Origin: Ruminiclostridium papyrosolvens DSM 2782
GTDB taxonomy: Bacteria; Bacillota; Clostridia; Acetivibrionales; DSM-1351
DNA length: 64,000 nt
Reading direction: 5' to 3'
Assembly (NCBI RefSeq): GCF_029318685.1
Contig: NZ_CP119677.1
Coordinates: 124,001-188,000 of the forward strand
The notes beneath the pieces were generated by a model. That model was not told the origin of the DNA. It made no database searches and saw only the letters and a list, made by a program, of their open reading frames with translations. Every line of letters starts with the position of its first letter. Positions within the stretch are counted from its first letter, which is position 1. Made by a program: the position numbers and the translations under genes. Below are positions 1,480-18,065 of the stretch, in pieces.

Positions 1480-2550
1480 ATGAATTATAAAATTACAGTG
1501 CTTCCGGGAGACGGAATTGGTCCGGATATAATAGCGGAAGCCTTGAAGGTTTTAGATTTGATAGGTGAAAAATATGGCCACAGCTTCTTATATACAGAAG
1601 CTGATTTAGGCGGTATTGCTTTAGACAGGCATGGAGAGCCGCTGCCACAGGTTACGGTGGATACCTGTAAGGGGAGTGATGCAGTGCTGCTGGGGGCAGT
1701 AGGTGGCCCTAAATGGGATACATTGCCCGGAAATAAGAGGCCGGAAGCGGGATTGCTGGGGATAAGAGCGGCTCTCGGATTATATGCCAACCTTAGACCG
1801 GCTGTTATATATGGGGCTTTAAAGGATGCATCACCGCTCAAAACAGAAATAATTAGCAATGGTATTGATATTATGGTTATCCGTGAATTGACCGGAGGAA
1901 TTTATTTCGGCAAGAGAGGCAGACTTGACTCAGAAGGCGGAGAGGCTGCATTTGACACAGAAATGTATAATGTATCTGAAATAAAGAGAATAGCAAAAGT
2001 TGGCTTTGAAACGGCTATGAAGAGGGGCAAAAAGCTTATGTCCGTGGATAAGGCCAATGTACTTGAAAGCTCAAGGCTCTGGAGGCAGGTAGTTGAAGAG
2101 GTGGCAAAGGAATATCCGGAGGTTGCCTTAAGTCATATGTACGTTGATAATGCGGCAATGCAGTTGGTCAGAAACCCTGCTCAATTTGACGTTATCCTTA
2201 CAAGTAATATATTTGGAGATATCTTATCGGACGAAGCTTCCATGATAACAGGTTCTATCGGAATGCTGCCATCCGCCAGTGTTGGCTCTTCGAAGCTGGG
2301 GCTTTATGAGCCTATACATGGGTCTGCACCTGATATTGCAGGACAGGATAAAGCAAATCCTATTGCGACAATACTTTCAGTGGCTATGATGCTGAGATAT
2401 TCACTTGATTTGACTGATGAAGCAGATGCTATTGAAAAGGCTGTTCAAGATGTTTTAAATTCGGGCTACAGAACTGCTGACATAGCCTCTCCGGGTACTA
2501 AGGTTGTTGGTACCAAGGAGATGGGAAAGCTCCTTAGAGAGCATATGTAG
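1480..2550 (+). CDS. leuB: 3-isopropylmalate dehydrogenase
   Basis: NAD-dependent oxidative decarboxylation of 3-isopropylmalate to 2-oxoisocaproate. The 356-residue length is typical. Seen are the N-terminal [10 protein letters not shown], the GAVGGPKWD loop, the substrate-binding [10 protein letters not shown], the [14 protein letters not shown] segment and the metal/NAD region [11 protein letters not shown]...[12 protein letters not shown]. The ATG at 1480 follows a GGAATGGAG ribosome site. It is the last leu gene visible; an imperfect hairpin follows at about 2573-2620, coinciding with the left end of the insertion sequence, so the natural operon end may have been altered by the insertion. 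Confidence 0.97.
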
Positions 2551-2730: not shown

Positions 2731-4332
2731 TTAGCAGGCTTTTATTTCATGAAGTTCTTTTCCACATCGGTCATTTTGAATTTTGGAGTGTAGCTTGTTT
2801 ATGTTATAGCCAAAACACAACAGCATAAATTCCGTTTTGACACTGGTTCTCCCTCTAGTTAAAAATCGTTTAAAATTATAGTCACTTTTTAGAACCCCAA
2901 AGGCTCCTTCAACTTGGATGGAACGATTTACTCTTAGAAGAATGCCTTTTTCCGTCAAGATGTTTTCATAAGATTTTTGTCTCTTTTTTACAAATGTTTT
3001 AGATACCTGCATTTTGCGATTTCCTTGGGCTTTTGTACACTTAGACTTATAGGGGCAATTACTACAATCTTCACATTCATATATGCTAATCTCGGAACGA
3101 TATCCTGTTGCAGATTTTCTATGAGTTGTTCCTGACATTTTTAATTGTTTTCCATTATGGCACGTATACTCATCTTTATCTTCATCATATTTCATATTTT
3201 CACGTTTGCTGATATCTTTCTTGAAACTTTTCTTCTTCCATATCTTGTATGTTTGAGGTTTTATGTAGCTTTGCTGTTGCTTTTCTTCCAAGTACAGATA
3301 GTTTTCTTCGCTCTCATAGCCAGAGTCTGCAATTATATTTTCATAACACCTTCCTAAGTTTGATTCCATACTTTTTAGAAACGGGATCAGTGTAGCAATG
3401 TCATTCCTATCCTGAAAGACTCCAACGCCGGTAACATATTCGCTTTCTACACCAATCTGTACATTGTAAGCAGGTTTTAGCTGAGCGTTACGCATGTGAT
3501 CATCTTTCATGTGCATGAATGTTGCATCAGTATCCGTTTTAGAATAACTGTTTCTCCCCTCGAACAGCCGGTTATGAGCATTGTATTTTTCCTGACGTTC
3601 TTTAAATTCCTTAAGCTGCTCTGTGAATTTCTGTACTTGAGTTTTACGTTTACCGATTCCATGAACGAATTCTATATTGTCTTCTTTTTGCTTATCCTTT
3701 AAATATTTAAGGACTTGCTCTAAATCCGCCAGTATACTATCTTTTGATACTGAAAAGTTAGTTAAATATGACTGGTTTATATCCACTAAGCAAGCTTTGA
3801 TTTTCTCAAACATCTTTGCTTCGTTTTTATTGACTACTTTCTTCCATACAAAGGTATAGCGGTTTGCATTTGCTTCAATTTTAGTACCATCCACAAACAG
3901 GTTTTCGAATTTGACTTCTCCTATAGAATGCAGGTGCTGAACCATTTGATAGAATAGGTCTTCTATTGCTTCTGGAAGATAATCCTTGCGAAATCTGGCT
4001 ATAGTTGAGTGGTCAGGCTTTGATTCCCCTTGGAGCAGCCACATGTAATTAATATCTCTTTTACATGCAGTTTCAATTTTTCTGCTTGAGTATATGTTAT
4101 TTGAGTTTGCATATGTTATTATCTTGAACATAGTCTTTGGGTCAACTGCCGGTTTTCTTCCCGTAGAAGAGTAAGCCTTATACAACTTTGTGTAATTCAA
4201 TCCCTCCAATATTTGGCTTAGCAGTCTGACAGAATCATCTTCAGGTATTAACATCTCCAAATTTAAAGGCAAAACTAATTGATAGTATCCGTTAAATCCG
4301 GTATAATTTTTATGTTGGATAAGTTTTTTCAC
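2731..4332 (-). CDS. IS1182-family transposase
   Basis: A 533-residue DDE transposase, apparently full length and uninterrupted. The N-terminal DUF772-like helical domain (about residues 15-120) contains the RKPAVDPKTMFKI and DHSTIARFR motifs. The catalytic region shows D in LFVDGTKIEA, D in IADSGYESEENY and E in VEGAFGVLK. A Cys-rich insert (CEDCSNCPYKSKC) precedes the C-terminal segment, as in the family. It points opposite to the flanking leu and gap genes. The open frame suggests a recent or still mobile copy. Family placement is firm; mobility is inferred. Confidence 0.93.
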   Translation of the reverse strand: MKKLIQHKNYTGFNGYYQLVLPLNLEMLIPEDDSVRLLSQILEGLNYTKLYKAYSSTGRKPAVDPKTMFKIITYANSNNIYSSRKIETACKRDINYMWLLQGESKPDHSTIARFRKDYLPEAIEDLFYQMVQHLHSIGEVKFENLFVDGTKIEANANRYTFVWKKVVNKNEAKMFEKIKACLVDINQSYLTNFSVSKDSILADLEQVLKYLKDKQKEDNIEFVHGIGKRKTQVQKFTEQLKEFKERQEKYNAHNRLFEGRNSYSKTDTDATFMHMKDDHMRNAQLKPAYNVQIGVESEYVTGVGVFQDRNDIATLIPFLKSMESNLGRCYENIIADSGYESEENYLYLEEKQQQSYIKPQTYKIWKKKSFKKDISKRENMKYDEDKDEYTCHNGKQLKMSGTTHRKSATGYRSEISIYECEDCSNCPYKSKCTKAQGNRKMQVSKTFVKKRQKSYENILTEKGILLRVNRSIQVEGAFGVLKSDYNFKRFLTRGRTSVKTEFMLLCFGYNINKLHSKIQNDRCGKELHEIKAC

Positions 4333-4352
4333 AAATTAAATTATACAACACT

Positions 4353-4374
4353 TGCGGGCCCTACGGGACCCGCA
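4353..4374. repeat. GC-rich hairpin in the transposase leader
   Basis: Six-base arms TGCGGG and CCCGCA, with two further C-G pairs inside one mismatch and a TACG loop, just upstream of the transposase start on the minus strand. Such hairpins can mask the ribosome site when transcription reads in from outside; that role is inferred. Confidence 0.5.
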
Positions 4375-4393
4375 TTTTACTATTTTAGGTACA

Positions 4394-4448
4394 AAAAGGG
4401 GACTGCTGCACAGCGAATAAAATTTATTCATTGTGCAACAGCCCCTTT
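4394..4448. repeat. Long imperfect hairpin at the right IS end
   Basis: Arms AAAAAGGGGACTGCTGCACA and TGTGCAACAGCCCCTTTTT flank a GAATAAA/TTTATTC inner stem. It ends in a T-run on the plus strand and would work as a strong terminator shielding gap from upstream reading. It also contains the proposed right terminal repeat. Confidence 0.65.
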
Positions 4449-4604
4449 TTTTTTGTGGTGCATATTTCTACTGTTTATATCCATTTCAATACCATTAGTA
4501 TTAGTCTGTAAACCATCCTGTGCCATCTTCTGTATACTGATTCGACAAATAAAGAGCTAAATTCACCTCTACTATCGTTAAATATTGAAGGAAAAATAAA
4601 AAAG

Positions 4605-4633
4605 TTGATAATAGTTACTAAAATGTTTATTTT
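4605..4633 (+). promoter_or_regulatory. Candidate sigma-A promoter for the gap operon
   Basis: TTGATA at 4605-4610, a 17-base spacer and TATTTT at 4628-4633, about 100 bases before gap in an AT-rich stretch (4449-4734) that otherwise holds no gene. The -10 is weak. It is downstream of the insertion sequence, so the gap cluster appears to have its own promoter. Confidence 0.3.
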
Positions 4634-4734
4634 TGTTAATTATTTTTTGTCAGTATTCAGTTTATTATTAATCATGAAGTACATATACAGAGTATTTCAC
4701 ACACGCAGATATTAATTTGTTAGGAGGTTATGTG

Positions 4735-5754
4735 ATGGCTGTAAGAATTGGAATAAACGGATTTGGCAGGATAGGAAGAAATTCGTTTAAAGTGTTATTG
4801 GAAAAGTATTCAGAAGATCTGGAGGTTGTTGCAATTAATGATTTGACAGCGCCGGAAACGTTGGCACATCTGTTAAAGTATGATTCTGTATTTGGAAGGT
4901 ACAATGGATTGGTTGAAGTTTGTAAAAACGGCTTAAAAGTGAATGGAAGGCCAGTCAAGATTCTATCGGAAAAGGATCCTGCAAGTATCAATTGGGGAGA
5001 TATGGGAGTTGATATTGTTTTGGAGTCCACAGGATTATTCAGCAAGAGAGAAAAAGCCCAGTTACATATCACAAAGGGTAATGCAAAAAAAGTAATAATA
5101 TCAGCACCTTCACCTGATGATGATATAACCGTAGTAATGGGAGTTAACCATGATAGGTATGATGCGAAAAAGCATAACATAATTTCAAATGCCTCTTGTA
5201 CTACCAACTGCTTATCACCATTGGCTAAGGTATTGAATGATAACTTCGGAATAGTCAGAGGATTGATGACCACGGTTCATGCATATACCAATGATCAGAA
5301 GATTCTTGACTTACCGCATAAGGATTTAAGGAGGGCAAGGGCTGCAAATGTATCAATAATTCCTACAAAAACAGGGGCTACAAAGGCGGTTGAAAAGGTG
5401 CTGCCTGAGCTTGCAGGGAAGTTGAGCGGGCTTGCTTTGAGAGTACCTACATTTGCTGTCTCAGTTGTTGACCTTGTTATCGAAACGGAAATGCTCGTAG
5501 TAAAGAATGATGTAAATGCTGCATTGATTGAAGCTTCGGAAGGAAATATGAAGGGTATTCTGGGATACACGCAGGAACCACTAGTATCCATAGATTTCAA
5601 GGGTCAGTCTGAATCATCCATTGTAGATGCTCTGTCCACAATTGTTATTAATGATAATATGATTAAGGTTGTTGCCTGGTATGACAACGAGTGGGGTTAT
5701 TCAAACAGGTATGCCGATTTAGCAGCTTTTGTAGCGAAAAAGGGCTTTAATTAA
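4735..5754 (+). CDS. gap: Type I glyceraldehyde-3-phosphate dehydrogenase
   Basis: Phosphorylating NAD-dependent GAPDH, 339 residues. Seen are GINGFGRIG at the dinucleotide fold, Asp36 in AINDLT (favours NAD over NADP), the active-site SNASCTTN with Cys155, base His182 in TTVHAYT, and C-terminal [11 protein letters not shown]. The start is the ATG at 4735, seven bases after AGGAGG. Unlike glycolytic operons there is no pgk or tpi beside it. It is followed 55 bases later by a PLP enzyme and ligase genes, so it may be a second, accessory GAPDH. It carries changes at usually constant places ([20 protein letters not shown]), which could mark altered inhibitor sensitivity; that is inference. Confidence 0.95.
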
Positions 5755-5809
5755 ATTACAGGTATTCGCTGCGTGAATGCTATGTTGGCTGTTAAGGAGG
5801 CCTAATATA

Positions 5810-7279
5810 ATGGAAAACTGTGATTTGCTCTTGACCCCTGTTGCAGATAAATTAAGGCAGCTTATCAATAGAGATATAACATCATTCCACGCTCTTCCCA
5901 TATCAGGGAAGAAGTCCATATCCTCCTCAGCCATATATGATAAATATAAGGACTTGTTTGGGGACGATTACTATAGGTCTGAAATGACTATAACTGGCGA
6001 AAATTTTGATACGCCGGTACTTCCGTCCCGATGTATAAAGCAATCTGAGGATTTGACCGCAAAGGCTTTTGGAGCAAGAAAGAGTTTTTATGTAACAATG
6101 GGAACAACCACTGCTAACAGGATAGTTATAAATACCATGGCGGATTATGGGGCTCGGGTTTTAGTTGACAGGTCCTGCCACATTTCAATCCATTTCAGTG
6201 TCAGGGATAGAAAGTGTGAGCTTACATATATCCCGTATAAGCATTTATGTAAAGCATCAGGACGTTCCTATTTTAACTTCTACAAGGTTGTTTCTCAATA
6301 TAAACAGGCACTTAAAGATGGTAGACCATACAAACTTGTAATTTTAAACGGGTATTCGTATGAAGGTGTTTTTTATGACTTGAAACCGCTAATCAGGGAG
6401 TGTATAAAAGCCAACGATGATGTTAGCTTTTTAATAGATGAGGCATGGTTTGCATATGGATATTTCCACAAGGGTTATAAAAAGTATACGGCTATGCAGA
6501 TAGCTGCAGATTTACAGGCAGAAATGCCGGATAGGAAAATATGTATTGTATCTACTCAATCGGCTCATAAATCTTTAAGTGCCCTTCGTCAAGGTTCATA
6601 TATTCATACTTTCGCAGATAAGGCTTTTGTCAGAAAGTTATTGGAGAACAAGTTTTCTGTACATACTACCTCGCCAAGCTACCCGATTATTGCTTCACTG
6701 GAGTTGGCAAGAGTACAGGCCGTTAAGGAAGGCAGCCGCATGATAGAGGATTCGCTATTGATTTCTAAGTTCTTTTGTGAACAGGTCAAAGAGAATAAAA
6801 GGTTATCCTTATACGCTATAAATAATAAAGATTTTATCGGTAAGGGTGATGGGGGCAGGGTATTTGTGGATCCTCTGAAAATTTCTATTAACCTGTCAAA
6901 ATTAAAGATAAGGCCAAAAGACTTTATCAGGTACGCTTTTGATAAATTTGGTATTTATATTAACAGATACTGCAATAAATCCATCCTTATAAACATTCAT
7001 ATAGGAATTAAAAAACAGGATATTTTAACACTATTGGACGCAATGGAAGAATTTCAACAGGAGACTCAGGAAAAAATGTTAAATCCCCGTAAGAATAGTA
7101 TTTCGGCGGAGAATGAGATTGATTATAGAGCCGAGGTAGGGGCAATAAGCGAATGTTTTGTTATTCCTTACCCTCCGGGAGTGCCTTTGCTTTTTAAGGG
7201 AGACATAATAAACCGTAAGGAAGCAGAAAAAATAAAGATACTAAAGCAAAACGGAGTGGATTTAATAGTAGTTAAATAA
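5810..7279 (+). CDS. Divergent Orn/Lys/Arg decarboxylase-fold PLP enzyme
   Basis: Fold-type I PLP enzyme of 489 residues. The core resembles the Orn/Lys/Arg decarboxylase major domain: His124 in RSCH for ring stacking, Asp210 in IDEAWFAYGYF for the pyridine nitrogen, and the Schiff-base Lys254 in STQSAHKSLSALRQGSYIH. The family's C-terminal VIPYPPGVPLLFKGD segment is at the end. It lacks the normal N-terminal HMPGHK signature (SFHALPISGKK instead) and the usual NGST glycine loop (MGTTTANR). The start at ATG 5810 follows AAGGAGG; an upstream in-frame ATG at 5777 has none. It is 20 bases from the ligase gene. Decarboxylation of a basic amino acid is possible, but another PLP reaction cannot be excluded. 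Confidence 0.75.
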   Translation: MENCDLLLTPVADKLRQLINRDITSFHALPISGKKSISSSAIYDKYKDLFGDDYYRSEMTITGENFDTPVLPSRCIKQSEDLTAKAFGARKSFYVTMGTTTANRIVINTMADYGARVLVDRSCHISIHFSVRDRKCELTYIPYKHLCKASGRSYFNFYKVVSQYKQALKDGRPYKLVILNGYSYEGVFYDLKPLIRECIKANDDVSFLIDEAWFAYGYFHKGYKKYTAMQIAADLQAEMPDRKICIVSTQSAHKSLSALRQGSYIHTFADKAFVRKLLENKFSVHTTSPSYPIIASLELARVQAVKEGSRMIEDSLLISKFFCEQVKENKRLSLYAINNKDFIGKGDGGRVFVDPLKISINLSKLKIRPKDFIRYAFDKFGIYINRYCNKSILINIHIGIKKQDILTLLDAMEEFQQETQEKMLNPRKNSISAENEIDYRAEVGAISECFVIPYPPGVPLLFKGDIINRKEAEKIKILKQNGVDLIVVK

Positions 7280-7299
7280 TTTATGAAGGAGGTTGAAGG

Positions 7300-8763
7300 A
7301 TGATTCCATTATCAAAGCTTAAGAAAATGTCAGATAAATACCCTCAAAAGGCAGCAATTATTGAAGGTAATAAAGTTCTAACCTATAACGATTTATATAC
7401 GATGACAGGCAATGGTGTAAGCAACATTGTCAGTAAATATAATATTCAGAAACTTAAACGGATTGTCTTTATATCTGAAAACAGATATGAGATGCTTGTG
7501 CTTATGTCAATATTCTCTACGCTGAAGGTGACATTTTTGGGATTGGACTTTACAGGGAGTATCCAAAAAAAAATAGAGTGCATAAAAAGCATAGATGCGG
7601 AAGGTATCGTATATACAAAGAGGTATGCAGATGAAGTAAAGCTGATAAACAAAGGACTTAATCTGCTGACAATTTGTGTGGATAAAGAGTTTACTGACTT
7701 AGTAAGAAAACCCGACGAGACACAGCAGGAGTTCGATGCAAGCGGGATTAGCCGCCCTTTTGAGTCTATATCATTTACCTCTGGTACCAGCGGGATTCCA
7801 AAAGTTGTTTATAGAGACAAATCCTTTGATGGAAGGCGGTTTCCCTATCTTATAGACAGATTTGGATTTACTGAGTTAGATTTATTTCTTGTGACAGTAC
7901 CTTTTTACCATGTTTCAGCAATGGGCTGGGGCAGGCTGTTTTTGAACATTGGAGCTACCATTGTATTGGGAGATATAAATAATCCGGTTAGCATGGCAGC
8001 GGACTTGGTAAAATATAAGATTACCACTACACTGATTGTACCGAATATTCTGGAAAAAATGACAAAGGCCTTTGAAGAAAGGGTAGTAGAGGGTAGCATA
8101 AGTCTGAATTTTATTATCGTAGGAGGAAAACATTTTCCGGCAGACCTGAAAAGGCGCTCGATTAATGTATTTGGGTCTATTGTACATGAATACTATGGTT
8201 CAACGGAAACAGGAGTTAATGTTATTGCTGAGCCTCATGACTTGATAGCAATTGCTGACAGTTCGGGCAAGGAAATGGACGGAAGCAGAGTGAAAATCCT
8301 TGATGACAGGAACATTCCTCTTCCCAGAGGTATTAAGGGACACGTAGCTATTTCCAGCTACCAGAATATGAAGGGATATCTGAATGCTGAATCAAACAAG
8401 GTAGAAATAGAAGACACAGACTATATTGTTACGCCTGATTACGGTTGGATGGATGACAACGGATATTTGTTCCTGACAAGCCGTTCAACTCCTGATATCA
8501 ATATCTACAAGCTTGAAAATGAAATAGTCAGGATTAATGGAATAGAGGATTCGTACATATTTACAGGAGACGATGATAGATTATACTGTGTTGTTACAAT
8601 TAATCATGAGCTAAATAGTAACTTAACCAAAGTCAAGAATATTTTAGAGTCAAACGGTTTTAACGACTTTAAAATAATTAATACAGTTATACCCTACAGC
8701 ATGTCTGGAAAAGTAAATTTAGAAAAACTTAAAGGCATGGTAATAAGGGTTTCAAATAGATAA
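7300..8763 (+). CDS. AMP-forming acyl/aminoacyl ligase (ANL superfamily)
   Basis: An adenylating enzyme of 487 residues that should activate a carboxylic acid as acyl-AMP. Core motifs are the P-loop SFTSGTSGIPK near residues 158-168, HEYYGSTETG (A5), a degenerate DYGWMDDNGYLFLTSRS at the hinge, and a C-terminal SGKVNLEKLK carrying the A10 lysine. There is no carrier-protein domain. AAGGAGG precedes the ATG at 7300. Position between a PLP enzyme and an HMGL condensing enzyme suggests a biosynthetic rather than fatty-acid-degrading role; the substrate cannot be read from the sequence. The spacer to the next gene holds a long inverted repeat. Confidence 0.85.
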   Translation: MIPLSKLKKMSDKYPQKAAIIEGNKVLTYNDLYTMTGNGVSNIVSKYNIQKLKRIVFISENRYEMLVLMSIFSTLKVTFLGLDFTGSIQKKIECIKSIDAEGIVYTKRYADEVKLINKGLNLLTICVDKEFTDLVRKPDETQQEFDASGISRPFESISFTSGTSGIPKVVYRDKSFDGRRFPYLIDRFGFTELDLFLVTVPFYHVSAMGWGRLFLNIGATIVLGDINNPVSMAADLVKYKITTTLIVPNILEKMTKAFEERVVEGSISLNFIIVGGKHFPADLKRRSINVFGSIVHEYYGSTETGVNVIAEPHDLIAIADSSGKEMDGSRVKILDDRNIPLPRGIKGHVAISSYQNMKGYLNAESNKVEIEDTDYIVTPDYGWMDDNGYLFLTSRSTPDINIYKLENEIVRINGIEDSYIFTGDDDRLYCVVTINHELNSNLTKVKNILESNGFNDFKIINTVIPYSMSGKVNLEKLKGMVIRVSNR

Positions 8764-8796
8764 TGCAACTACCCCTGTGTTTAAAGTATTTCTAAC

Positions 8797-8873
8797 GTAC
8801 AGCTCATGTTCATTTGAGTACCTCTTACGTTTTTAAATAAATTTTCCTTTTAAATCTTGAACATGAGTTGTAC
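8797..8873. repeat. 16-bp inverted repeat between ligase and HMGL genes
   Basis: GTACAGCTCATGTTCA at 8797-8812 and TGAACATGAGTTGTAC at 8858-8873 are reverse complements at 15 of 16 positions, around a 45-base AT-rich loop. No T-run follows, so it is not a standard terminator. It could be an RNA stem or a pair of protein sites. Confidence 0.75.
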
Positions 8874-8942
8874 TGAGTACTTTACTCCGGAAGACGATGT
8901 TATAAAAAGCAGATAACGTTGGTATTGTAAGGAGGAATGACC

Positions 8943-10322
8943 TTGGTTGTTTTAAATGAAAATACAGGAATTCTTGAAAAAAGGTGTGAATCGTATACTC
9001 TTCAAGATATTGAAAAACCAAACCTTTATAAAGATATATTTAATTATGACGAGATACCAAAATGTGTATTCGATTACAAAAATATACCCATATCACCTGC
9101 AAAAAATTTTTGGATAACTGATACAACGTTCAGAGACGGACAGCAATCAAGAGTACCCTACACTGTTGACCAGATATTAAAGTTATATGACTTTCTTCAC
9201 CTGCTTGGGGGTGAGAAGGGAATAATACGACAGACTGAATTTTTCCTGTATAGTGATAAGGACAAAGAAGCCGCACTTGGCTGTATGGAGAGAGGATACA
9301 AGTTTCCTGAAGTTACCGGATGGATACGTCCGCTGAGTAAGGATTTAGAGCTTGTTAAAGATTTTGGACTCAAAGAGGTTGGTTTCCTGGTAAGCAGTTC
9401 AGATTATCATATCTTTAAAAAGTTGAACAAGACAAGACAACAGGCAATGGAGGATTATATGTCTATCATTAGGAAAGCTGTTGAATTGGAAATAAAACCA
9501 AGATGTCACTTTGAGGATATAACCCGTTCTGACTTTTACGGATTTGTACTACCGTTTGCCAATGAACTCCAAAAGCTAATGGTGGAGAGTGGAACACCAG
9601 TAAAAATCAGATTATGCGACACCATGGGATATGGTGTTTCGTATCCCGGAGCTTCATTACCCAGAAGTGTACCTGAAATTATATATAGTTTGAGAACCCT
9701 TGCGGGGTTCGATAGTGAATTACTTGAATGGCACGGGCATAATGACTTTTATAGAAGTGTAAGTAATGCTGCCACTGCATGGCTTTACGGATGTTCGGGT
9801 GTGAACTGTTCACTTTTAGGGATAGGCGAAAGGACAGGAAATACACCCTTGGAGGCAATGGTAATTGAATACGCACAGTTGAGGGGTACTCTGGATGGTA
9901 TGGAGGTCTCTGTAATAACAGACATAGCAAGATATTTTGAGAAGGAACTGGATTATATTATACCTCCCATGACACCTTTTGTGGGCAAAAGCTTTAATGT
10001 AACACAGGCGGGGATTCATGCTGACGGTCTGTTAAAGAACGAGGAGATATATAACATATTCAATACCGGCAAACTCCTGAAAAGACCCGTTGGTGTTTCT
10101 GTAACTCAAACATCCGGCCTTGCAGGAATAACATTATGGATTAATAATAACCTAATGCTTGATAAAAATTCAAAGCTTGACAAAAAAGATCCCAGAGTTA
10201 AAAAAATTAAAGATTGGGTTGATGTCCAGTATCAGTCGGGTCGGGTTACACCTATAAGTGACGTGGAAATGATTGAAACTATAAGGGCAATAGCACCTGA
10301 TATATTTATATTAACAATGTAG
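8943..10322 (+). CDS. HMGL-like condensing enzyme, Re-citrate synthase type
   Basis: A DRE-TIM (HMGL-like) acyl-CoA:2-oxoacid condensing enzyme of 459 residues. The catalytic DTTFRDGQQSR lies at about residues 60-70 and the metal-binding WHGHNDF at about 263-269, with ERTGNTPLEA and the QAGIHADGL signature further on. It lacks the LeuA regulatory domain. The overall pattern (IRQTEFFLYS, KFPEVTGWIR, RCHFEDITRSDFYGF, MGYGVSYPGASLPRS) resembles what I recall of clostridial Re-citrate synthases, often mislabelled isopropylmalate synthase. I prefer TTG at 8943, seven bases after GGAGG, over the ATG at 8937, which almost touches it. It may supply citrate for glutamate, or a cluster-specific condensation. 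Confidence 0.7.
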   Translation: MVVLNENTGILEKRCESYTLQDIEKPNLYKDIFNYDEIPKCVFDYKNIPISPAKNFWITDTTFRDGQQSRVPYTVDQILKLYDFLHLLGGEKGIIRQTEFFLYSDKDKEAALGCMERGYKFPEVTGWIRPLSKDLELVKDFGLKEVGFLVSSSDYHIFKKLNKTRQQAMEDYMSIIRKAVELEIKPRCHFEDITRSDFYGFVLPFANELQKLMVESGTPVKIRLCDTMGYGVSYPGASLPRSVPEIIYSLRTLAGFDSELLEWHGHNDFYRSVSNAATAWLYGCSGVNCSLLGIGERTGNTPLEAMVIEYAQLRGTLDGMEVSVITDIARYFEKELDYIIPPMTPFVGKSFNVTQAGIHADGLLKNEEIYNIFNTGKLLKRPVGVSVTQTSGLAGITLWINNNLMLDKNSKLDKKDPRVKKIKDWVDVQYQSGRVTPISDVEMIETIRAIAPDIFILTM

Positions 10323-10347
10323 AAATAAAATAAGGAGAACGTTTTAT

Positions 10348-11307
10348 ATGAAAAAAGATAGTTTAATAAAGGGAATGATATTTTGCTTTCTTGCAGTTGT
10401 TGCATGGGGAGGAATGTTTCCAATTGCAGGTGTAATCATGAAAGTAATAAATCCGTTTCATTTTACAGCAATTAGATATTTGGTTGCAGGTATAATATTT
10501 CTGATTTTATTATTTATTTTAGAAGGAAAAAAATCTTTCGGCTTTGACGGTAAATTTTGGAAATTATACTTTTTTGGGTCTATGGGGTTTGCCGGATATA
10601 GTTTTTTAACATTTGGGGGGCAAAAATTACTTGGGACTTCAGGGGCTGTTGTAGCCTCTATCTTGATGGCCCTGATGCCTATAAATACAGTTATTGTAAA
10701 TACTATTTTAGGAAAAGCGAAGCCCAAACCCTTTACGCTGGCTACAATTATTTTTGCCCTGGCAGGAGTAATAATGGTTATAACAAAGGGTAACATAAAT
10801 AACCTCTTGGCGGTAAAAAACAACCTGCTTGGAGATATATTGATATTCCTAGGGACAATCTGCTGGGTTATTTACACAATTGGAGGGACAAGCTTCAGTT
10901 CCTGGTCACCCATAAGATATACATCCTTAAGCTGCGCTCTGGGAGTTATAACAGTATGCCTGTTAACCGCTGCTGGAACTGCTATGCACCTTATTAAAAC
11001 ACCATCATTGAACGATGTGTTTTCAAATAGCTGGCAACTGGGGTACATGGCTCTTATAGCAGGGGTAATGGCAGTATTCCTCTGGAACTATGGCAATAAA
11101 ATAATTACACCCATTAATGGAATACTTTTTATGAACCTGGTTCCTGTAACAACCTTCGTAATTTCTATTTTCCTTGGTACCAGTTTCAAAGGTATTGAGT
11201 TATGCGGTGCGGTACTAACAATATCCTCACTTATAGCTAATAATGCATATACAAGATTTAGCATAAACAGTGAGAAAAAAGAAAAGGCCTTAAGTCAGAA
11301 GGCCTGA
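10348..11307 (+). CDS. EamA/DMT-family membrane transporter
   Basis: A 319-residue integral membrane protein with about ten predicted hydrophobic helices in two EamA repeats, roughly residues 8-145 and 155-300. The motif PFHFTAIRYLVAG in the first repeat is typical of the drug/metabolite transporter superfamily, whose members export amino acids, drugs or metabolites. TAAGGAGA precedes the ATG at 10348, 25 bases after the HMGL gene, so it probably ends the operon that starts at gap. It could export the product of that operon. Substrate unknown. Confidence 0.9.
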   Translation: MKKDSLIKGMIFCFLAVVAWGGMFPIAGVIMKVINPFHFTAIRYLVAGIIFLILLFILEGKKSFGFDGKFWKLYFFGSMGFAGYSFLTFGGQKLLGTSGAVVASILMALMPINTVIVNTILGKAKPKPFTLATIIFALAGVIMVITKGNINNLLAVKNNLLGDILIFLGTICWVIYTIGGTSFSSWSPIRYTSLSCALGVITVCLLTAAGTAMHLIKTPSLNDVFSNSWQLGYMALIAGVMAVFLWNYGNKIITPINGILFMNLVPVTTFVISIFLGTSFKGIELCGAVLTISSLIANNAYTRFSINSEKKEKALSQKA

Positions 11308-11334
11308 TACATATTTTTCAACTATAATAGTCAG

Positions 11335-11385
11335 AATCTGTGAGCCTGTGCTTTAAAAATATGGCTCATGGCTCACAGATTTTTT
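11335..11385. terminator. Bidirectional hairpin terminator overlapping a gene end
   Basis: AATCTGTGAGCC at 11335-11346 pairs with GGCTCACAGATT at 11370-11381, followed by a T-run to 11385. It serves the EamA operon. Its right arm contains the stop codon (11373-11375) and last codons of the converging isochorismatase-like gene. Confidence 0.85.
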
Positions 11386-11918
11386 ATCCACTCATCTGAA
11401 GAAAGTACTTTGCTGAATCTTGCCGCTTGTGTAATCAAAATGGCTTTATGAAGATCTTCTGCAGAAATAGTACCTGCACTGTTTGATAATTGGAGTGTCC
11501 CGGTTGCATCTGACAGAAATTCAACGGAATAGCCCATATGCATAGCCTGCCTTGCAGTTGTATCACAGCACATCTGGGTCATAAAACCTGCTATGGCAAC
11601 AGTATCGATTTTCAAATCCTTTAACACAGATTCCAAATTTGTATTTGTAAAGCTGCCGGGCAATTTTTTCTCAACAACCTGGGCATGCTTTTTACTTAAA
11701 AGCTCAGGATGAATGTCCCACTCATTACTCCCTTTTTTAAATGTCATTGCATTCTCGGCGGGGGAGGTATGCTGGATTAGAATAACAGGTATATTTTTTT
11801 CGTTGGCAGTATTGACTACCTTGAGAATGTTACTAAAGCTGTTTGAGGGATATGAGATAGGTAACTTTCCAGATATATATTCGTTTTGCACATCAATTAC
11901 CAGTAATGCTCTTTTCAT
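11373..11918 (-). CDS. Isochorismatase-like cysteine hydrolase
   Basis: Small alpha/beta hydrolase of the isochorismatase/nicotinamidase superfamily, 181 residues from the ATG at 11918. The catalytic triad is visible: Asp9 in VIDVQNEY, Lys in VEKKLPGSF (about 84-85) and Cys117 in MTQMCCDTTAR. Substrates in the family include isochorismate, nicotinamide, biuret and N-carbamoyl compounds. A GTG at 11930 would extend it by four residues but overlaps the GGAG ribosome site. It is divergent from an AraC regulator with an inverted repeat between them, which suggests inducible control. Confidence 0.88.
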   Translation of the reverse strand: MKRALLVIDVQNEYISGKLPISYPSNSFSNILKVVNTANEKNIPVILIQHTSPAENAMTFKKGSNEWDIHPELLSKKHAQVVEKKLPGSFTNTNLESVLKDLKIDTVAIAGFMTQMCCDTTARQAMHMGYSVEFLSDATGTLQLSNSAGTISAEDLHKAILITQAARFSKVLSSDEWIKNL

Positions 11919-11970
11919 AAAAATATTCACTCCTTTATCTTTATCATAGTTATTTTATAGCAATGTAATT

Positions 11971-11999
11971 ATATACCAAATAAGGCAAAATTGGTATAT
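11971..11999. promoter_or_regulatory. Operator-like inverted repeat between hydrolase and araC
   Basis: ATATACCAA at 11971-11979 and TTGGTATAT at 11991-11999 form a perfect 9-bp inverted repeat with an 11-base spacer. A third half-site TTGGTAT is at 12031-12037, and a TGATAA-AA-TTATCA palindrome at 12043-12056. The location suggests binding by the adjacent AraC-type regulator. Confidence 0.5.
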
Positions 12000-12111
12000 A
12001 CTGCAAAAAGTATTATTTAAATTAGATTAGTTGGTATTATGTTGATAAAATTATCAGTTGGGAAACCTTTGTATTTTTTTTGAAAGTATTGAGTCTCAGG
12101 AGGGCTGCTTA

Positions 12112-12999
12112 ATGCAAGATAATACAGCTTGGTTTGATCTTGATATTTATAATACGTTATCTACATTTGACACGGTATTCTCCAAGGATAAACTTCATCT
12201 TCTGTTCATAAGGAAAGGAGTAATGTATGTAAACATAGATGATAAAAAGCTTATACTTACAGCAATATCTATTTTTTGCTTCAATGGACGTGAAAATTTT
12301 GCAATACAGAATAAATGTAATGTAGAGGTAACGAGACTTTCGTTTTCACCAAATGTTATTAACAGCTCGTTTACAGTTGATAATATACACGATATTCCCA
12401 GCAATTTTTCAAAGACGGACAGGCTTGATTGCCTTTGTCTTCAGCCATTTATACATCGTACCGGACAATATATCGGGCAAATAGAGGTTGGACTGAAGCA
12501 AATTGATAAAATTGATTTTCTGTTAAAACAGATTATGGATATATCTGAAAATGTTTATTTTTTAAATAAGGACTTTATATATAGGTCTGCAATATTGGAA
12601 CTTTTATTAATTATTAATCAACATTCGAGTAAAGTCTTATTATGTAATAATACTATGCCGAATACAGATAACTCAACGGGAATAGAGGATGTAATCAGCT
12701 ATCTGCATTCCTTTTATTCTCATAATATAACGATTGCAACTATAACGCGCAACTTCAATACCAATAGAACAACACTTTCAAAGAAGTTCAAAGAGAAGCT
12801 TGGTGTTACTCCAATAGATTATTTGAACAGGGTAAGGATTACTAAAGCCGCACTGTTATTGCAGGAATCAAATATGCCTATAAATCAAATAATGATTAAG
12901 GTAGGATTTAATAACCGCAATTATTTCAACAAGGTTTTTAAAAAGCAGACGGGGTTAAGGCCGGGGGAATTCAGAAGAAATTACAGAAGCATTGTATGA
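12112..12999 (+). CDS. AraC-family transcriptional regulator
   Basis: A 295-residue regulator with an N-terminal sensing domain (about residues 1-190, probably cupin-like; not resolvable further) and a C-terminal double helix-turn-helix. The second half shows the AraC pattern: ITRNFNTNRTTLSKKFKEKLGVTPIDYLNRVRI, then MPINQIMIKVGFNNRNYFNKVFKKQTGLRPGEFR. The start at ATG 12112 is eight bases after CAGGAGG; an in-frame ATG at 12058 has no such site. It is divergent from the isochorismatase-like gene and a likely regulator of it, inferred from the shared inverted repeat. Confidence 0.9.
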   Translation: MQDNTAWFDLDIYNTLSTFDTVFSKDKLHLLFIRKGVMYVNIDDKKLILTAISIFCFNGRENFAIQNKCNVEVTRLSFSPNVINSSFTVDNIHDIPSNFSKTDRLDCLCLQPFIHRTGQYIGQIEVGLKQIDKIDFLLKQIMDISENVYFLNKDFIYRSAILELLLIINQHSSKVLLCNNTMPNTDNSTGIEDVISYLHSFYSHNITIATITRNFNTNRTTLSKKFKEKLGVTPIDYLNRVRITKAALLLQESNMPINQIMIKVGFNNRNYFNKVFKKQTGLRPGEFRRNYRSIV

Positions 13000-13033
13000 A
13001 ATGACTCAGTATTAATCACTGAAATCCTTAACG

Positions 13034-14023
13034 TCAATATTTAACGGTTAAGAGTAACACATCTTTTTTTACAGGCTCAAGTTCAATAGATGTATTTGTA
13101 TTGCCGCTCCAATAAACCTTTTGGCGTCCATCAACTTTCATGAACAGAGAATCTTTACCTTCTAGAATATTACCTGAGAAAATTTTCTGATAAAACTCCT
13201 CAAGGCAAAGGTTTTCTGAAAACAGATACGTACTAAGAGGAATTTCCGTATATCTAAAATGCCATGGCTCATAGGTTGCTCCCGTAATGTTTGTCTTTTT
13301 ACTGTCATACCTTAGTATAAAGCCGTATTTATAAGCGTTTGAGTTCAGCCATATTTGTTCTTTGGTTCCCTCAAAATCATTTCTGTGCTGTCCATTAATG
13401 CTGAATAAATCCACCGCAAGACCTGTCTCATGCTCGGAAAAACCGGGCATCGCCACCAGTAAACGAGTCTTTTCAAGGGCTTCTTTATAGGTTTTACTTT
13501 TTTTCCCAAAAACACTGAGATTGTAGTTGAATATTTCCTTTTGAGAGGCTTCTGACCTATAGGCACTGTTTAAAACAAATCCCTCAACACCTTCCTTTCT
13601 TGCGGAGTCAAGCATGGAATATAATGCTTTGGCAGTGGAGGGCTTCAGTTTCAACCCCTGATTTTCAAGGACTATTTTTTTGGAATCAATATTCACAAGG
13701 TCATCATTCACTGTGCTTTTTTCCAGAGGAGTGTACTTGTTAACCAGAACTTTTGTGGAAGACGATTCAACACCAACTTTACTGTAGTTTTTTAAATCAA
13801 AGTTCTTATTTATATCTGTTATATATAAATTATTACTAAGAACCATTATTTTTAAATAATTTGAGCCCATGGAGGTATATAAAACCGTCGGTGAAAGGTT
13901 TGGGTTGTTTTGTCCTGCATTGGAAGACTCTTTTGACCAATCAGTTTTTATTTCTGACAAAGTAATGGGAGTGCAAAAAAGCAAAACCAATACAAAAGCT
14001 ATAAATATAAGCAACTTTTTCAT
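13034..14023 (-). CDS. VanY-type D-alanyl-D-alanine carboxypeptidase
   Basis: Exported zinc peptidase of the M15B family, 329 residues, that trims D-Ala from peptidoglycan stems. The N-terminus is a hydrophobic signal/anchor (residues 3-22). The VanY domain spans about 120-265 with SAYRS, the zinc-binding SEHETGLAVDLF and EPWHFRY. About 55 residues follow the catalytic domain and have no recognised fold. AGGAGG precedes the ATG. It stands alone, convergent with araC. There are no vanHAX or vanRS neighbours, so a role in vancomycin resistance is not supported. Confidence 0.9.
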   Translation of the reverse strand: MKKLLIFIAFVLVLLFCTPITLSEIKTDWSKESSNAGQNNPNLSPTVLYTSMGSNYLKIMVLSNNLYITDINKNFDLKNYSKVGVESSSTKVLVNKYTPLEKSTVNDDLVNIDSKKIVLENQGLKLKPSTAKALYSMLDSARKEGVEGFVLNSAYRSEASQKEIFNYNLSVFGKKSKTYKEALEKTRLLVAMPGFSEHETGLAVDLFSINGQHRNDFEGTKEQIWLNSNAYKYGFILRYDSKKTNITGATYEPWHFRYTEIPLSTYLFSENLCLEEFYQKIFSGNILEGKDSLFMKVDGRQKVYWSGNTNTSIELEPVKKDVLLLTVKY

Positions 14024-14215
14024 TGTGGCCTCCTATTTTTTTAACAATTACTATTATATGCCAAAAAAACAGTTTTAAATTATATAAAAATGCCTTATTT
14101 TGAATTTATTAGTTAAATGAATAGTAAAGTTACATTTTGCAAATAATAGGCAATGAATTAACTACTATTACATTATTAACGGCTGCGAAAACGGCATATG
14201 GAGGCAGTGAAGATT

Positions 14216-14482
14216 ATGAGTGTTCACGAAATATCTCAACATAACGTAGATTTCAAAAAGGGTTTTATTTTATTAGGAGGTTGGATTTCCGCGGTATTAT
14301 CTCTTTTCATTTACCCGTTTGTTTTCGGTATGGTAGGAGTGATTTCAGGTATTCTTGCCGCTAAAGATGAGAAAAGCAGAGTAGGAGTCATGCTTGTTAC
14401 AGCCTCAATTCTACTCATGGGGGCCGGACTGGCTTTTAGTAACAGACTTTTGGCTACAACTATGAGTTATTTTGGATTTTAA
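14216..14482 (+). CDS. Small two-helix membrane protein, unknown
   Basis: An 88-residue protein with two hydrophobic segments, about residues 16-45 and 55-75, joined by a short charged turn (AAKDEKSR). I do not recognise a family; the glycine-rich paired helices resemble DUF4190-like small membrane proteins. The start at ATG 14216 follows GGAGG at 14200-14204; the upstream in-frame ATG at 14198 overlaps that site. It lies 41 bases before cyanophycinase in the same direction and may be co-transcribed with it. Confidence 0.65.
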   Translation: MSVHEISQHNVDFKKGFILLGGWISAVLSLFIYPFVFGMVGVISGILAAKDEKSRVGVMLVTASILLMGAGLAFSNRLLATTMSYFGF

Positions 14483-14523
14483 ATTTAATTGATAATATAC
14501 CTTTAATATATTTGGAGGAAAAC

Positions 14524-15348
14524 ATGGAAGACTTGGTGAACGGCAACCTGCTGGTAATAGGAGGGGCCGAAGATAAGTGGGGCCAGAGTAAGGTACTCAA
14601 GCATGCCATTGAAATGTGCGGGGGACCGGAATCAAAAATCATGGTTTTGACAACAGCTACGCAAAAACCCGAAGAAGTCGGTAAGGAATATAGGGCTGTT
14701 TTTTCAAGACTTGGAGTAAAATCCATAGATGTTTTAAATGTTGACAGCAGAACAGATGCAAACAGCGACTCTGTAGCCCAAAAAATATCCGGTGCTGCAG
14801 GGGTTTTTTTTACCGGAGGGGACCAGCTTAGAATTACAAGTATATTAGGCGGTACAAAAACTGCCAAGGTTCTTATGGATATGTATAAAAAGGGTATACC
14901 TATCATAGGAACAAGTGCAGGAGCTTCAGTAATGAGCAGTGTTATGATAGTTGACGGTAATGGGAATTCCGCTGCAAGAAAATGCACTCTTGGCATGTCT
15001 CCCGGACTTGGATTCATAGATCAGGTTATAATAGATCAGCACTTTGAGCAGAGGGGAAGACTGGGCAGACTTTTGATAGGAGTTGCACAAAACCCTTCCG
15101 TTCTGGGAATCGGAATAGATGAAGACACCTCGATAAAGGTATACTCAAATGCTTCTTTTGAGGTAATAGGCACAAACTGTGTTACCGTAATTGATGGGTA
15201 CACTATTCAGGAGTCAAATGTTTCAGAGTTAAAATCAGAGGAAATAATTGCATTGTCAAATGTAACCATACACATATTACCCAGTGGATACGGATATGAT
15301 ATCAGTCAGAGAAAAATAATAAGGCCTAAAGAAAACAAACACAATTAA
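14524..15348 (+). CDS. cphB: Cyanophycinase
   Basis: Serine exopeptidase of family S51 that releases beta-Asp-Arg dipeptides from cyanophycin. 274 residues, usual length. The nucleophile is Ser131 in GTSAGASVMS; LLVIGGAEDKWG at the start, FFTGGDQLRI in the middle and DQHFEQRGRLGRL are family hallmarks. TTGGAGG precedes ATG 14524. It is directly followed by cyanophycin synthetase (35 bases), so the pair makes and mobilises an Arg/Asp nitrogen store in the cytoplasm. Family members elsewhere can be general peptidases, but the neighbour settles the assignment. Confidence 0.95.
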   Translation: MEDLVNGNLLVIGGAEDKWGQSKVLKHAIEMCGGPESKIMVLTTATQKPEEVGKEYRAVFSRLGVKSIDVLNVDSRTDANSDSVAQKISGAAGVFFTGGDQLRITSILGGTKTAKVLMDMYKKGIPIIGTSAGASVMSSVMIVDGNGNSAARKCTLGMSPGLGFIDQVIIDQHFEQRGRLGRLLIGVAQNPSVLGIGIDEDTSIKVYSNASFEVIGTNCVTVIDGYTIQESNVSELKSEEIIALSNVTIHILPSGYGYDISQRKIIRPKENKHN

Positions 15349-15383
15349 ATGTTGTAATTCAACTTATCAGGAGGTTTTTCAAG

Positions 15384-18065
15384 GTGCAGATTCAAAGCAT
15401 TTATTGCTTTAAAGGAAGGAATATATACAGTCATCAGCCGGTTATCCGTATGGTAGTGGATATAGGAAAGTATGAAGAGGGTCCTACCAAGGATATACCG
15501 GGATTCAATAAAAAACTTCTCGAATTTTTCCCTGAAATAGCAGAACACACCTGCGGAGTGGGGTATGCAGGAGGATTCGGTGAAAGGCTTATTGAAGGAA
15601 CATACATGGGACATGTAGCTGAACATTTGATAATAGCAATTCAAAACAGGTTCGGTTACTTTGTAAAATATGGACAAACAAGACAAATAGGTAATACATC
15701 AAAATATTATATAGTCTATGAATACGGTAACGAAGCTTTTGCAGTTGAATGCGGAAGAAGGGCAATTGAAATAGTAGAAGCCTTTGCTGAGGGTAACACC
15801 GTTGATTTAGAACAAATCATGAAGGATTTGAAATATATATCCTCAGATACTGACATGGGCCCCAGTACCAAAGCCATTTATACGGCTGCAAAAAGAAGGG
15901 GAATACCTGTAAACAGAATCGGTGACGGAAGCATTCTCAGATTAGGCTACGGAAAGTACACAAGAGTAGTTCAGGCATCTCTTACTGATGGCTCAAGCTG
16001 TATAGCCGTAGATATTGCATCTGATAAACAAATGACAAAAAAACTTTTAACGGATAATAACATACCTGTTCCATACGGAGTTGTTGTAAGAACCGAGCAG
16101 GAAGCCTTTGAGGCTGCTGCAAAGGTAGGGTTTCCGCTGGTAATCAAGCCCATAGATTCAAATCAGGGAAAAGGAGTTACTGTAAATATCTGTTCTGAGG
16201 ATAAAATTAAGGTAGCTTTTTCGGAAGCACGAAAGTATTCAAAAAAAGTTATAGTTGAAAGATTTGTTTGCGGAAGGGATTATCGTGTGCTCGTAGTAGG
16301 AGATAAGGTATGTGCTGTTGCTGAACGCAGGCCCCCCCGTGTTACCGGCGACGGATTGAGTACCATAGCACAGCTTGTAGAGTATGAAAATGCTAATCCT
16401 CTAAGAGGCGAAGATCATGAAAAGCCCTTGACCCTCATCAAACTCGACGATATTTCACTAAATTATCTTAAAACTCAAGGGTATTCTCCTAATACTGTTC
16501 TAAAGCCGGGGCAGATAGTTAACCTCAGGCAGAACGGAAATATTAGTACAGGAGGCACAGCTAAGAACTGTACAAGAGAAATCCATCCTAAAAACGCACA
16601 GTATGCACTGGCTGCTGCAAAAGCCATGGGTCTTGATATTGCAGGGATAGATTTTTCAGCTCAGGATATTTCAATACCTATTGATAATAACCGGGGTGCA
16701 ATAATAGAAGTAAATGCGGCTCCCGGACTGAGGATGCATCTCCACCCAAGTGAAGGAGCGCCGATAAATGTTGCTGATGCTATACTTGATATGATGTATC
16801 CGCCAAATAAGCCCGTTAGCATACCTGTTGCAGCAGTTACAGGTACAAACGGCAAAACTACCACAACAAGACTTATTCGGCACACCCTATCACTTATGGG
16901 CTACAATGTAGGTATGACCTCAACAAGCGGCATTTATGTAGGCGATGAATGTGTTCAAAAGGGTGATAATACCGGCCCCGTCAGTGCAGAAGTCATATTG
17001 ACAAACAAGGAAGTGGACATTGCGGTTCTGGAGACAGCCAGAGGGGGAATAGTACGAAGGGGATTGGGATATGATTTGGCGGATGTGGGAGTTCTTATTA
17101 ATATAAGTGATGACCATCTTGGAATAGACGGAATAAATACAATTGAGGATCTTGCAAAAACAAAGGCTCTTGTTGTAGAAGCTGTAAAACACGACGGATA
17201 TGCAGTTTTAAATGCTGATGACGGTATGACTCCTTATATATTGGAAAGGACTCGCAGCAACGTTATAATGTTCAGCAGGGGTATTTCAAACCCTGTATTT
17301 AAAAGACATTGCAAAAATCCTAAAAATATAGCTGTATTCGTAAGAGAAAGCTTTGTATGGATTCAAAGAAATAACAAAAAGATTCCTCTGATAAGCTTAG
17401 ATGATATTCCCATAACCTTTGGAGGAATAGTTGATTGTAATATAGAAAATTCTCTGGCTGCAATATCAGCACTCATAGGACTCAATATACCATTGGATGC
17501 AATAGTAAAAGGCATGAATACGTTCCAGCCTGACATGGAACTTAATCCCGGCAGATTTAACATTTTCGACATGGGAACATTCAAAGTAATGATAGATTAC
17601 AGTCACAACATAGCAGGGTATTCTGCTGTAGTAAAATTTATGCAAAGAATAAAAGCCAAGAGGCTTGTTGGAATAATAGGTATGCCCGGAGACAGACAGG
17701 ATTCAAATTTAAAAGAGGTTGGAGAGCTTTGTGCTAACTCCTTTCACAAGATTTATATAAAAGAAGATATTGATTTAAGGGGACGAAGACGAGGGGAAGT
17801 AGCAGATATATTTGAGCAGAGTATAATTAGTGCCGGAGCAAAAAAAGAAAACGTAGAAATTATATACAGAGAAACAGAGGCGCTGGAAAAAGCCATGCTC
17901 GACGCGCAACCCGGGGATTTGATTGCATTGTTCTATGAAGAATTTGAGCCTGCCATTCATGTTATAAACAGGTTTAAAAAAGAGCAGGAACATGCAAATG
18001 AACTATTGGAAGGCAGCTTAAATGTATCTGTTAAAAATATAAAGCAATTCAGTACAAAATCATAG
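15384..18065 (+). CDS. cphA: Cyanophycin synthetase
   Basis: Makes the multi-L-arginyl-poly-L-aspartate polymer without ribosomes, using ATP. 893 residues, typical. It has an N-terminal CphA-specific domain (about 1-160), an ATP-grasp domain (about 215-475; GFPLVIKPIDSNQGKGVTV, IEVNAAPGLRMHLHPSEG) that adds Asp, and a Mur-ligase-like domain (from about 480; P-loop GTNGKTTTTRLI near 486-497) that adds Arg. The start is GTG at 15384, nine bases after AGGAGG. A hairpin terminator follows. In clostridia cyanophycin has been linked to spore assembly (C. perfringens); such a role here is inferred. Confidence 0.97.
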   Translation: MQIQSIYCFKGRNIYSHQPVIRMVVDIGKYEEGPTKDIPGFNKKLLEFFPEIAEHTCGVGYAGGFGERLIEGTYMGHVAEHLIIAIQNRFGYFVKYGQTRQIGNTSKYYIVYEYGNEAFAVECGRRAIEIVEAFAEGNTVDLEQIMKDLKYISSDTDMGPSTKAIYTAAKRRGIPVNRIGDGSILRLGYGKYTRVVQASLTDGSSCIAVDIASDKQMTKKLLTDNNIPVPYGVVVRTEQEAFEAAAKVGFPLVIKPIDSNQGKGVTVNICSEDKIKVAFSEARKYSKKVIVERFVCGRDYRVLVVGDKVCAVAERRPPRVTGDGLSTIAQLVEYENANPLRGEDHEKPLTLIKLDDISLNYLKTQGYSPNTVLKPGQIVNLRQNGNISTGGTAKNCTREIHPKNAQYALAAAKAMGLDIAGIDFSAQDISIPIDNNRGAIIEVNAAPGLRMHLHPSEGAPINVADAILDMMYPPNKPVSIPVAAVTGTNGKTTTTRLIRHTLSLMGYNVGMTSTSGIYVGDECVQKGDNTGPVSAEVILTNKEVDIAVLETARGGIVRRGLGYDLADVGVLINISDDHLGIDGINTIEDLAKTKALVVEAVKHDGYAVLNADDGMTPYILERTRSNVIMFSRGISNPVFKRHCKNPKNIAVFVRESFVWIQRNNKKIPLISLDDIPITFGGIVDCNIENSLAAISALIGLNIPLDAIVKGMNTFQPDMELNPGRFNIFDMGTFKVMIDYSHNIAGYSAVVKFMQRIKAKRLVGIIGMPGDRQDSNLKEVGELCANSFHKIYIKEDIDLRGRRRGEVADIFEQSIISAGAKKENVEIIYRETEALEKAMLDAQPGDLIALFYEEFEPAIHVINRFKKEQEHANELLEGSLNVSVKNIKQFSTKS

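Follow-up and report, generated by a model that had tools for sequence, protein, structure and literature searches.

A three-gene decarboxylase, ligase and exporter cassette in a five-gene island of Ruminiclostridium papyrosolvens, and its possible role in making an exported amide

Background

What might five neighbouring genes of a cellulolytic clostridium make together, and which of them belong together in nature? The genes lie at positions 4735-11307 of the window analysed here, a stretch of 64,000 nucleotides (bases 124001-188000 of the single-contig 5.03 Mb genome of Ruminiclostridium papyrosolvens DSM 2782, coded G000 below), and encode, in order, a type I glyceraldehyde-3-phosphate dehydrogenase (GAPDH), an OKR-decarboxylase-like pyridoxal phosphate (PLP) enzyme (OKR), an AMP-forming ANL ligase (LIG), a condensing enzyme of the HMGL family (HMGL) and an EamA/DMT exporter (DMT). 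A preliminary description, made from the DNA alone, had named these families and placed all five genes on one strand without pgk or tpi adjacent to the GAPDH gene, and we agree on each count: all five frames are open, lie on the forward strand and have the boundaries first given. The comparisons reported here suggest that the core of the island is a cassette of three genes, OKR, LIG and DMT, which recurs in several phyla, and that HMGL and GAPDH are clostridial additions to it. Published work is cited by its PMC number, in each case for the excerpts that were available to us.

A three-gene core in several phyla

When 84,980 species genomes were scanned with an alignment of OKR, 175 relatives were returned and 80 of them kept; genome contigs queried with a single protein gave no match. 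The line between core loci and others was set after a gap had been seen between 271 and 208 bits, and core loci are taken as those in which OKR scores more than 270 bits, plus one locus from Xenorhabdus sp. IM139775 (L074, 202 bits). There are 29 of them, made up of 25 of the 80 kept relatives and four Azospirillum plasmids, the latter from a search of plasmid proteins in which a ligase (about 36% identity) came after every Azospirillum relative of OKR (about 37%). Core OKR scores range from 202 to 338 bits, and those of the other 55 relatives from 183 to 208. A ligase relative lies near 28 of the 29 core OKR genes (all but L062) and an exporter relative near 27 (all but L049 and L053, both from Streptomyces and with no EamA gene nearby), and at E 1e-8 neither partner was found beside any of the other 55. 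Fisher's test gives 2e-21 for the ligase and 5e-20 for the exporter, values that are not true probabilities because the loci are related to one another. Short loci (15 kb or less) occur on both sides of the comparison, as 4 of the 25 core relatives and 7 of the 55 others.

The core loci come from Streptomyces (12), Kitasatospora (2) and Azospirillum (8), with one each from Iodobacter, Chromobacterium, Glaciimonas, Xenorhabdus and three metagenome-assembled genomes (Sideroxydans, a proteobacterium and a member of the Streptococcaceae). The order of the genes varies and the partners stay, the exporter gene being divergent in Iodobacter and Chromobacterium and upstream in Glaciimonas. In one genome of the Bacilli (G566) OKR, LIG and DMT are contiguous, at 45, 48 and 67% identity to the proteins of the island; among 398 Bacilli genomes the ligase turned up in two, counting the genome on which the search was centred, and among 14 genomes of the order to which G566 belongs it turned up in one. 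No relative of GAPDH or HMGL was found near any of the 29 core loci or in the 19.9 kb of the G566 locus. Judged by this distribution, the five-gene unit splits into a core of three genes and two clostridial add-ons, and HMGL is counted as an add-on because neither G566 nor any of the 29 other core loci has it. That the genes might be scattered in relatives, which the preliminary description had named as a ground for refuting it, holds in part: the decarboxylase-like enzyme, the ligase and the exporter keep together across phyla, and HMGL and GAPDH do not.

Several features of the neighbourhoods of these loci were also recorded. A LysR-type gene stands beside the cassette at all 15 of the non-actinobacterial core loci (called from record annotation at four, from Pfam at two, and from sequence family or our own reading at nine). 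Of the 14 actinobacterial loci, eight (L042, L043, L044, L045, L046, L047, L048 and L051) lie near AfsA-type genes, often with genes that we named, by reading their sequences, as a HAD phosphatase, an acyl-CoA dehydrogenase-like protein and a TetR regulator, a neighbourhood reminiscent of butyrolactone signalling. The decarboxylase frame of the Xenorhabdus locus is in two pieces in this assembly (1287-2952 of L074). A search of open-licence papers with a few terms found no description of a decarboxylase, ligase and EamA set.

A possible route from amine to exported amide

The explanation that we favour, and to which we give about an even chance, is that the island encodes a minimal pathway, independent of nonribosomal peptide synthetases (NRPS), for an amide that is exported from the cell. 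Its first step would be the decarboxylation of an amino acid to an amine by OKR (5810..7279, + strand, 489 aa), a role suggested by the fold and by a complete PLP site. The protein matches PF01276 at 155.7 bits against a cut-off of 27 and retains H124, D210, H253 and the PLP lysine K254, all of which we take to serve at the PLP site. Core OKR sequences further carry FHALP, R260, R386 and H397, marks of their clade that are absent from the other OKR sequences compared (31 core rows against 20 of the other 55). The nearest solved relative, by sequence and by fold, is Rv2531c of Mycobacterium tuberculosis, a probable amino acid decarboxylase (9N0N, 9N0O, 9N0P), which shares the FHALP and SLSALRQ stretches but has chains of 933-947 residues as against 489.

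The second step is assigned to LIG (7300..8763, + strand, 487 aa; PF00501, 126.6 bits), which would adenylate a carboxylate with ATP and join it to the amine from OKR without a carrier protein. We infer this step from four things: the ranking of structures in a fold search; the adenylation lysine, which is retained; the A8 stretch, which is degenerate; and the locus itself, which has no carrier or condensation gene. In a Foldseek search with the predicted model (pLDDT 90), the five best matches in the Protein Data Bank (PDB) are all chains of amide bond synthetases, McbA (6SQ8, 6H1B) and ShABS (8PPP) being matched with a TM-score of about 0.8 and at 14-18% identity in those alignments. The motifs SGTSG, YYGSTE and SGKV are present, G470 and K471 are invariant in 20 aligned sequences, and the ligase has A3, A5 and the A10 lysine, as looked for in an adenylating enzyme. 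None of the seven ligases scanned matches the model of the AMP-binding C-terminal domain, and no carrier protein or condensation domain was found among the eight proteins scanned from 2731-12999.

A different reading of the same gene makes LIG an ordinary acyl-CoA synthetase, with a cassette that makes an acyl-CoA or recycles a carboxylate, OKR as a separate maker of amines and the EamA protein as a general exporter of amines or amino acids. The matches of the ligase to NCBIfam models, loose and all below cut-off, are mostly to CoA ligases, and in the fold search the CoA ligase MatB comes sixth, within fourfold of the amide synthetases in E-value, and MenE lies within about fourteenfold. The likeness to amide bond synthetases, which holds by a small margin, is accordingly suggestive, and the ANL structure does not settle the choice between a thioester and an amide. 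It is the tight linkage of three genes, the fusion of the ligase with an EamA domain, the degenerate A8 and the seven ligases without a C-terminal domain match that speak against a plain acyl-CoA synthetase, and we hold this reading unlikely, while leaving it a real share of our belief.

Export of the amide would fall to DMT (10348..11307, + strand, 319 aa; PF00892, 108.6 bits), which is 41% identical to the EamA part of an Azospirillum fusion. In the Azospirillum plasmid record scanned the ligase is fused to an EamA domain, and 9 of the 28 core-locus ligases are of a length that fits such a fusion (those of the eight Azospirillum loci and of Xenorhabdus), two of them confirmed by Pfam. A single protein of this kind places the ligation just before export, and since both activities share one polypeptide in two proteobacterial genera, export by the EamA protein is probably closely coupled to the ligase. 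The cassette that crosses phyla and this natural fusion lend support to the view of the preliminary description that the island is a small biosynthetic cluster; its sequence of amine, activated carboxylate and export stands in outline, with the PLP site kept and the ligase model nearest, by little, to amide bond synthetases.

Among known systems the closest in description are the E-64 clusters cp1 and cp2 of Aspergillus (PMC12568646), which likewise combine a PLP decarboxylase, an ANL amide bond synthetase and a dedicated acid-making enzyme without an NRPS. They differ in having an ATP-grasp enzyme and an epoxysuccinate-forming oxygenase, while the island has an EamA exporter and a clostridial citrate synthase paralogue; the comparison is one of cluster descriptions.

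The exported-amide explanation has further evidence to contend with besides the CoA-ligase matches. The core loci are not independent of one another, 12 being from Streptomyces and 8 from Azospirillum; the ligase is missing from one of them and the exporter from two; and none has the two remaining genes of the island. The ligase has no near relative of solved structure (best match 66.6 bits), and the activity of Rv2531c, the nearest solved relative of OKR, has not been clarified in the account available (PMC12910592).

A Re-citrate synthase paralogue

The acyl part of the putative amide may be indicated by HMGL (8937..10322, + strand, 461 aa; PF00682), which is closely related to clostridial HMGL-type copies of Re-citrate synthase and 70% identical to a copy in the same genome that lies beside an aconitate hydratase gene. 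The two island copies, from G000 and from a sister genome (G005), are 91% alike and are 67-71% identical to 29 copies of the housekeeping type, which are 76-99% alike among themselves. Both island copies are changed at 31 of 238 otherwise invariant columns, none of them in DTTFRDGQQ or HGHND, which we take to be catalytic motifs. The island pair sits on a long branch (0.61 or 0.54 changes per column), and in a tree from which the outgroup was left out the ten Re-citrate synthase copies of the genus form a clade that excludes it, the exact root being unsure. On these sequences HMGL is an old or imported and fast-changed paralogue and not a recent copy. Second copies of a Re-citrate-synthase-type enzyme (58-63% identity) were also seen in three other genomes of the order (G040, G046 and G050); as none of the three has an OKR orthologue, a second copy is not in itself special.

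HMGL may be compared with the Re-citrate synthase described beside aconitase in C. thermocellum (PMC6115520): the island enzyme resembles this type in being 70% identical to the aconitase-linked copy of G000, and is unlike it in its long branch, its changed invariant positions and the want of an adjoining aconitase gene. Sequence comparison makes HMGL likely to be a dedicated citrate synthase, and the simplest view of its arrival in the Ruminiclostridium cassette is that it would give a dedicated supply of the acyl part. We put the proposal that this part is citrate, or a close homologue, at about one chance in three. If the weak citrate flux shown for C. thermocellum (PMC6115520) extends to the Ruminiclostridium host, as analogy suggests it may, the gain of a citrate synthase by an anaerobe would make sense with citrate as the acyl part. 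An ordinary citrate synthase is present in all nine of the cassette genomes tested, and this is weak evidence because 13 of 14 control genomes have one too.

The preliminary description had seen in these genes the logic of staphyloferrin B, in which case citrate from the Re-citrate synthase and a diamine from OKR would be joined by the ligase and exported by the EamA protein as a siderophore. A dedicated citrate synthase paralogue, a PLP decarboxylase and an exporter do share one island, as in the sbn cluster (PMC7139808), and to that extent the likeness stands. The likeness is of logic only: in sbn the parts are joined by the synthetases SbnC, E and F and citrate is made by SbnG, which is structurally distinct (PMC7139808), and no synthetase of the NRPS-independent siderophore (NIS) class (IucA/IucC-type) was found among the eight island-region proteins, the only ones searched. 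No uptake gene was seen among the island genes, the other cassettes found are without the citrate synthase, and we regard a siderophore as very unlikely.

An HMGL enzyme beside an ANL ligase could also call to mind a beta-lactone pathway of the cystargolide kind, in which HMGL would make a malate derivative and the ligase would close the beta-lactone. We had presumed a detection rule for betalactone clusters that pairs HMGL-like with AMP-binding genes, and do not rely on it, since the source consulted did not bear it out. In the available part of that source HMGL-like is the only core gene named for betalactone (PMC11015633). An isopropylmalate synthase (IPMS)-type enzyme and ANL ligases do occur together in the cystargolide (cys) and belactosin (bel) clusters, which differ from the island in having a beta-lactone-forming ANL enzyme, a methyltransferase and an ATP-grasp ligase (PMC11427300). 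None of these was seen in the island (for the methyltransferase and the ATP-grasp ligase, among the eight proteins scanned); the island has a single ANL gene, which is kept at 28 other loci and in G566 where HMGL is lacking, and a beta-lactone seems to us barely credible here.

The accessory GAPDH

The remaining addition, the GAPDH (4735..5754, + strand, 339 aa; TIGR01534, 437.7 bits, above cut-off; 90% identical in G005), is not the only one in the genome, a second being encoded at G000:C1:3439437-3440429 with 55% identity to it. The preliminary description had raised the prospect of a self-resistant GAPDH, and in that case GAPDH, with citrate synthase possibly a second target, would be struck by the product, and the spare copies in the island would be insensitive to it. 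Producers of pentalenolactone use a spare GAPDH (PMC11727764), and the two extra enzymes of the island, acquired as one block, are each a diverged second copy. The distribution of the GAPDH points the other way. Of 56 other genomes of the order, nine have a clade mate (67-71% identity) and no cassette; seven of these GAPDH genes are divergent from a LysR-like gene (one such LysR was checked), one lies at a contig edge and one heads pgk and enolase genes (G057). The other cassettes found have no GAPDH or HMGL nearby. In a tree that left out one partial sequence (G008), the two island GAPDHs and the LysR-linked group come out as sisters, at a weak support of 82/79. Both island copies are changed at 13 of 168 positions that are invariant in the other eight GAPDHs, and Cys155 and His182 are unchanged. 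Since clade mates occur without the cassette and these two residues are kept, the sequences are better explained by an ordinary isozyme that the island took up than by a resistant target of the same origin as the island; self-resistance is not supported and we consider it highly unlikely.

The LysR-linked GAPDH genes (L136, L137, L138, L197, L198, L200 and L201) lie apart from other glycolytic genes, as far as those loci were read. The foxicin cluster (PMC5318452), considered as a counterpart because it lists a GAPDH gene, was dropped, the word decarboxylase being absent from the excerpt available.

The island and its flanks

In the sister genome G005 the five genes recur in unchanged order, their proteins being 84-92% identical. 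In four further genomes of the genus (G002, G003, G006 and G007) the locus differs: G007 and G006 run from leuB directly to the isochorismatase gene and on to VanY-like, hypothetical, cyanophycinase and cyanophycin synthetase genes and lack all five island genes, and in the stretches read from G002 and G003 no isochorismatase gene was found, nor any of the five. Because G005 has all five and the leuB-isochorismatase junction of G007 and G006 is empty, the five genes, on this comparison, are a block gained or lost as one beside leuB. Of 11 genomes of the family, two likewise have an OKR orthologue (at 100 and 88% identity; the other nine have relatives of 25-30% only), and these two remain the only ones among 58 genomes of the order at E 1e-40 and among 391 genomes of the class at 1e-50.

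On the left the island is bounded by leuB (1480..2550, + strand), a backbone gene. The IS1182 transposase gene between leuB and GAPDH (2731..4332, - strand; NF033551, 391.4 bits), which is absent from the G005 locus and lies outside the cluster, is probably a recent insertion. The right boundary is an isochorismatase-fold hydrolase gene (11373..11930, - strand; PF00857), which also adjoins the cassette in Azospirillum (32% identity). It was considered as a gene of the cluster and rejected, as it adjoins leuB in the island-free G007 and G006; its place in G000 is explained by the insertion site, the gene being a backbone neighbour of leuB. Beyond it an AraC-type gene (12058..12999, + strand; PF12833), whose start, by comparison with G005, may lie about 54 bases further in, is a possible regulator of the island, found at the corresponding position in G000 and G005 and not in G002, G003, G006 or G007. 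The nearby cyanophycinase and cyanophycin synthetase genes (14512-18065) are backbone genes present in island-free relatives. Of the flanking genes (929-2550 and 11373-18065), leuD, leuB and the cyanophycin genes are slightly closer to those of island-free G007 (L170) than to those of G005 (L028), and the isochorismatase gene is closer to that of G005 (90%, against 84% to G007). The island may have travelled with its isochorismatase-side flank by recombination.

Within the island the gaps between successive genes are 55, 20, 173 and 25 bases. No terminator-like site was found between GAPDH and OKR, a gap conserved in G005, and the 173-base gap between LIG and HMGL contains a long hairpin (8782..8890, + strand) without a T run. 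This hairpin is far more stable than shuffled sequence (z -5.6), is kept in G005 (about 13379-13560 of L028) and has no Rfam match at the gathering threshold; as it is present in a single copy in the G000 genome, a mobile repeat was rejected. It is possibly a processing or stability element that separates HMGL and DMT from the genes upstream. A promoter scan was uninformative (33 sites against 34.2 expected), and one or two transcription units are possible, as had first been proposed.

Implications

In the fullest form of the exported-amide explanation, a family of such pathways would extend over Bacillota, Actinomycetota and Pseudomonadota, and the cassette of Ruminiclostridium, having gained a Re-citrate synthase paralogue and a second GAPDH, would make an amide of citrate or a homologous tricarboxylate with an ANL enzyme in place of an NIS synthetase, the GAPDH protecting glycolysis; taken whole, this combination seems to us very unlikely. 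If the exported-amide explanation itself is true, three genes would suffice to lead from an amine to an exported amide, in a pathway that is easy to miss because its core has no marker of an NRPS, a polyketide synthase (PKS) or a ribosomally synthesized and post-translationally modified peptide (RiPP). The ligase could then serve as a biocatalyst, and the cassette would offer a small and concrete target for the discovery of new products in cellulolytic clostridia and in Streptomyces.

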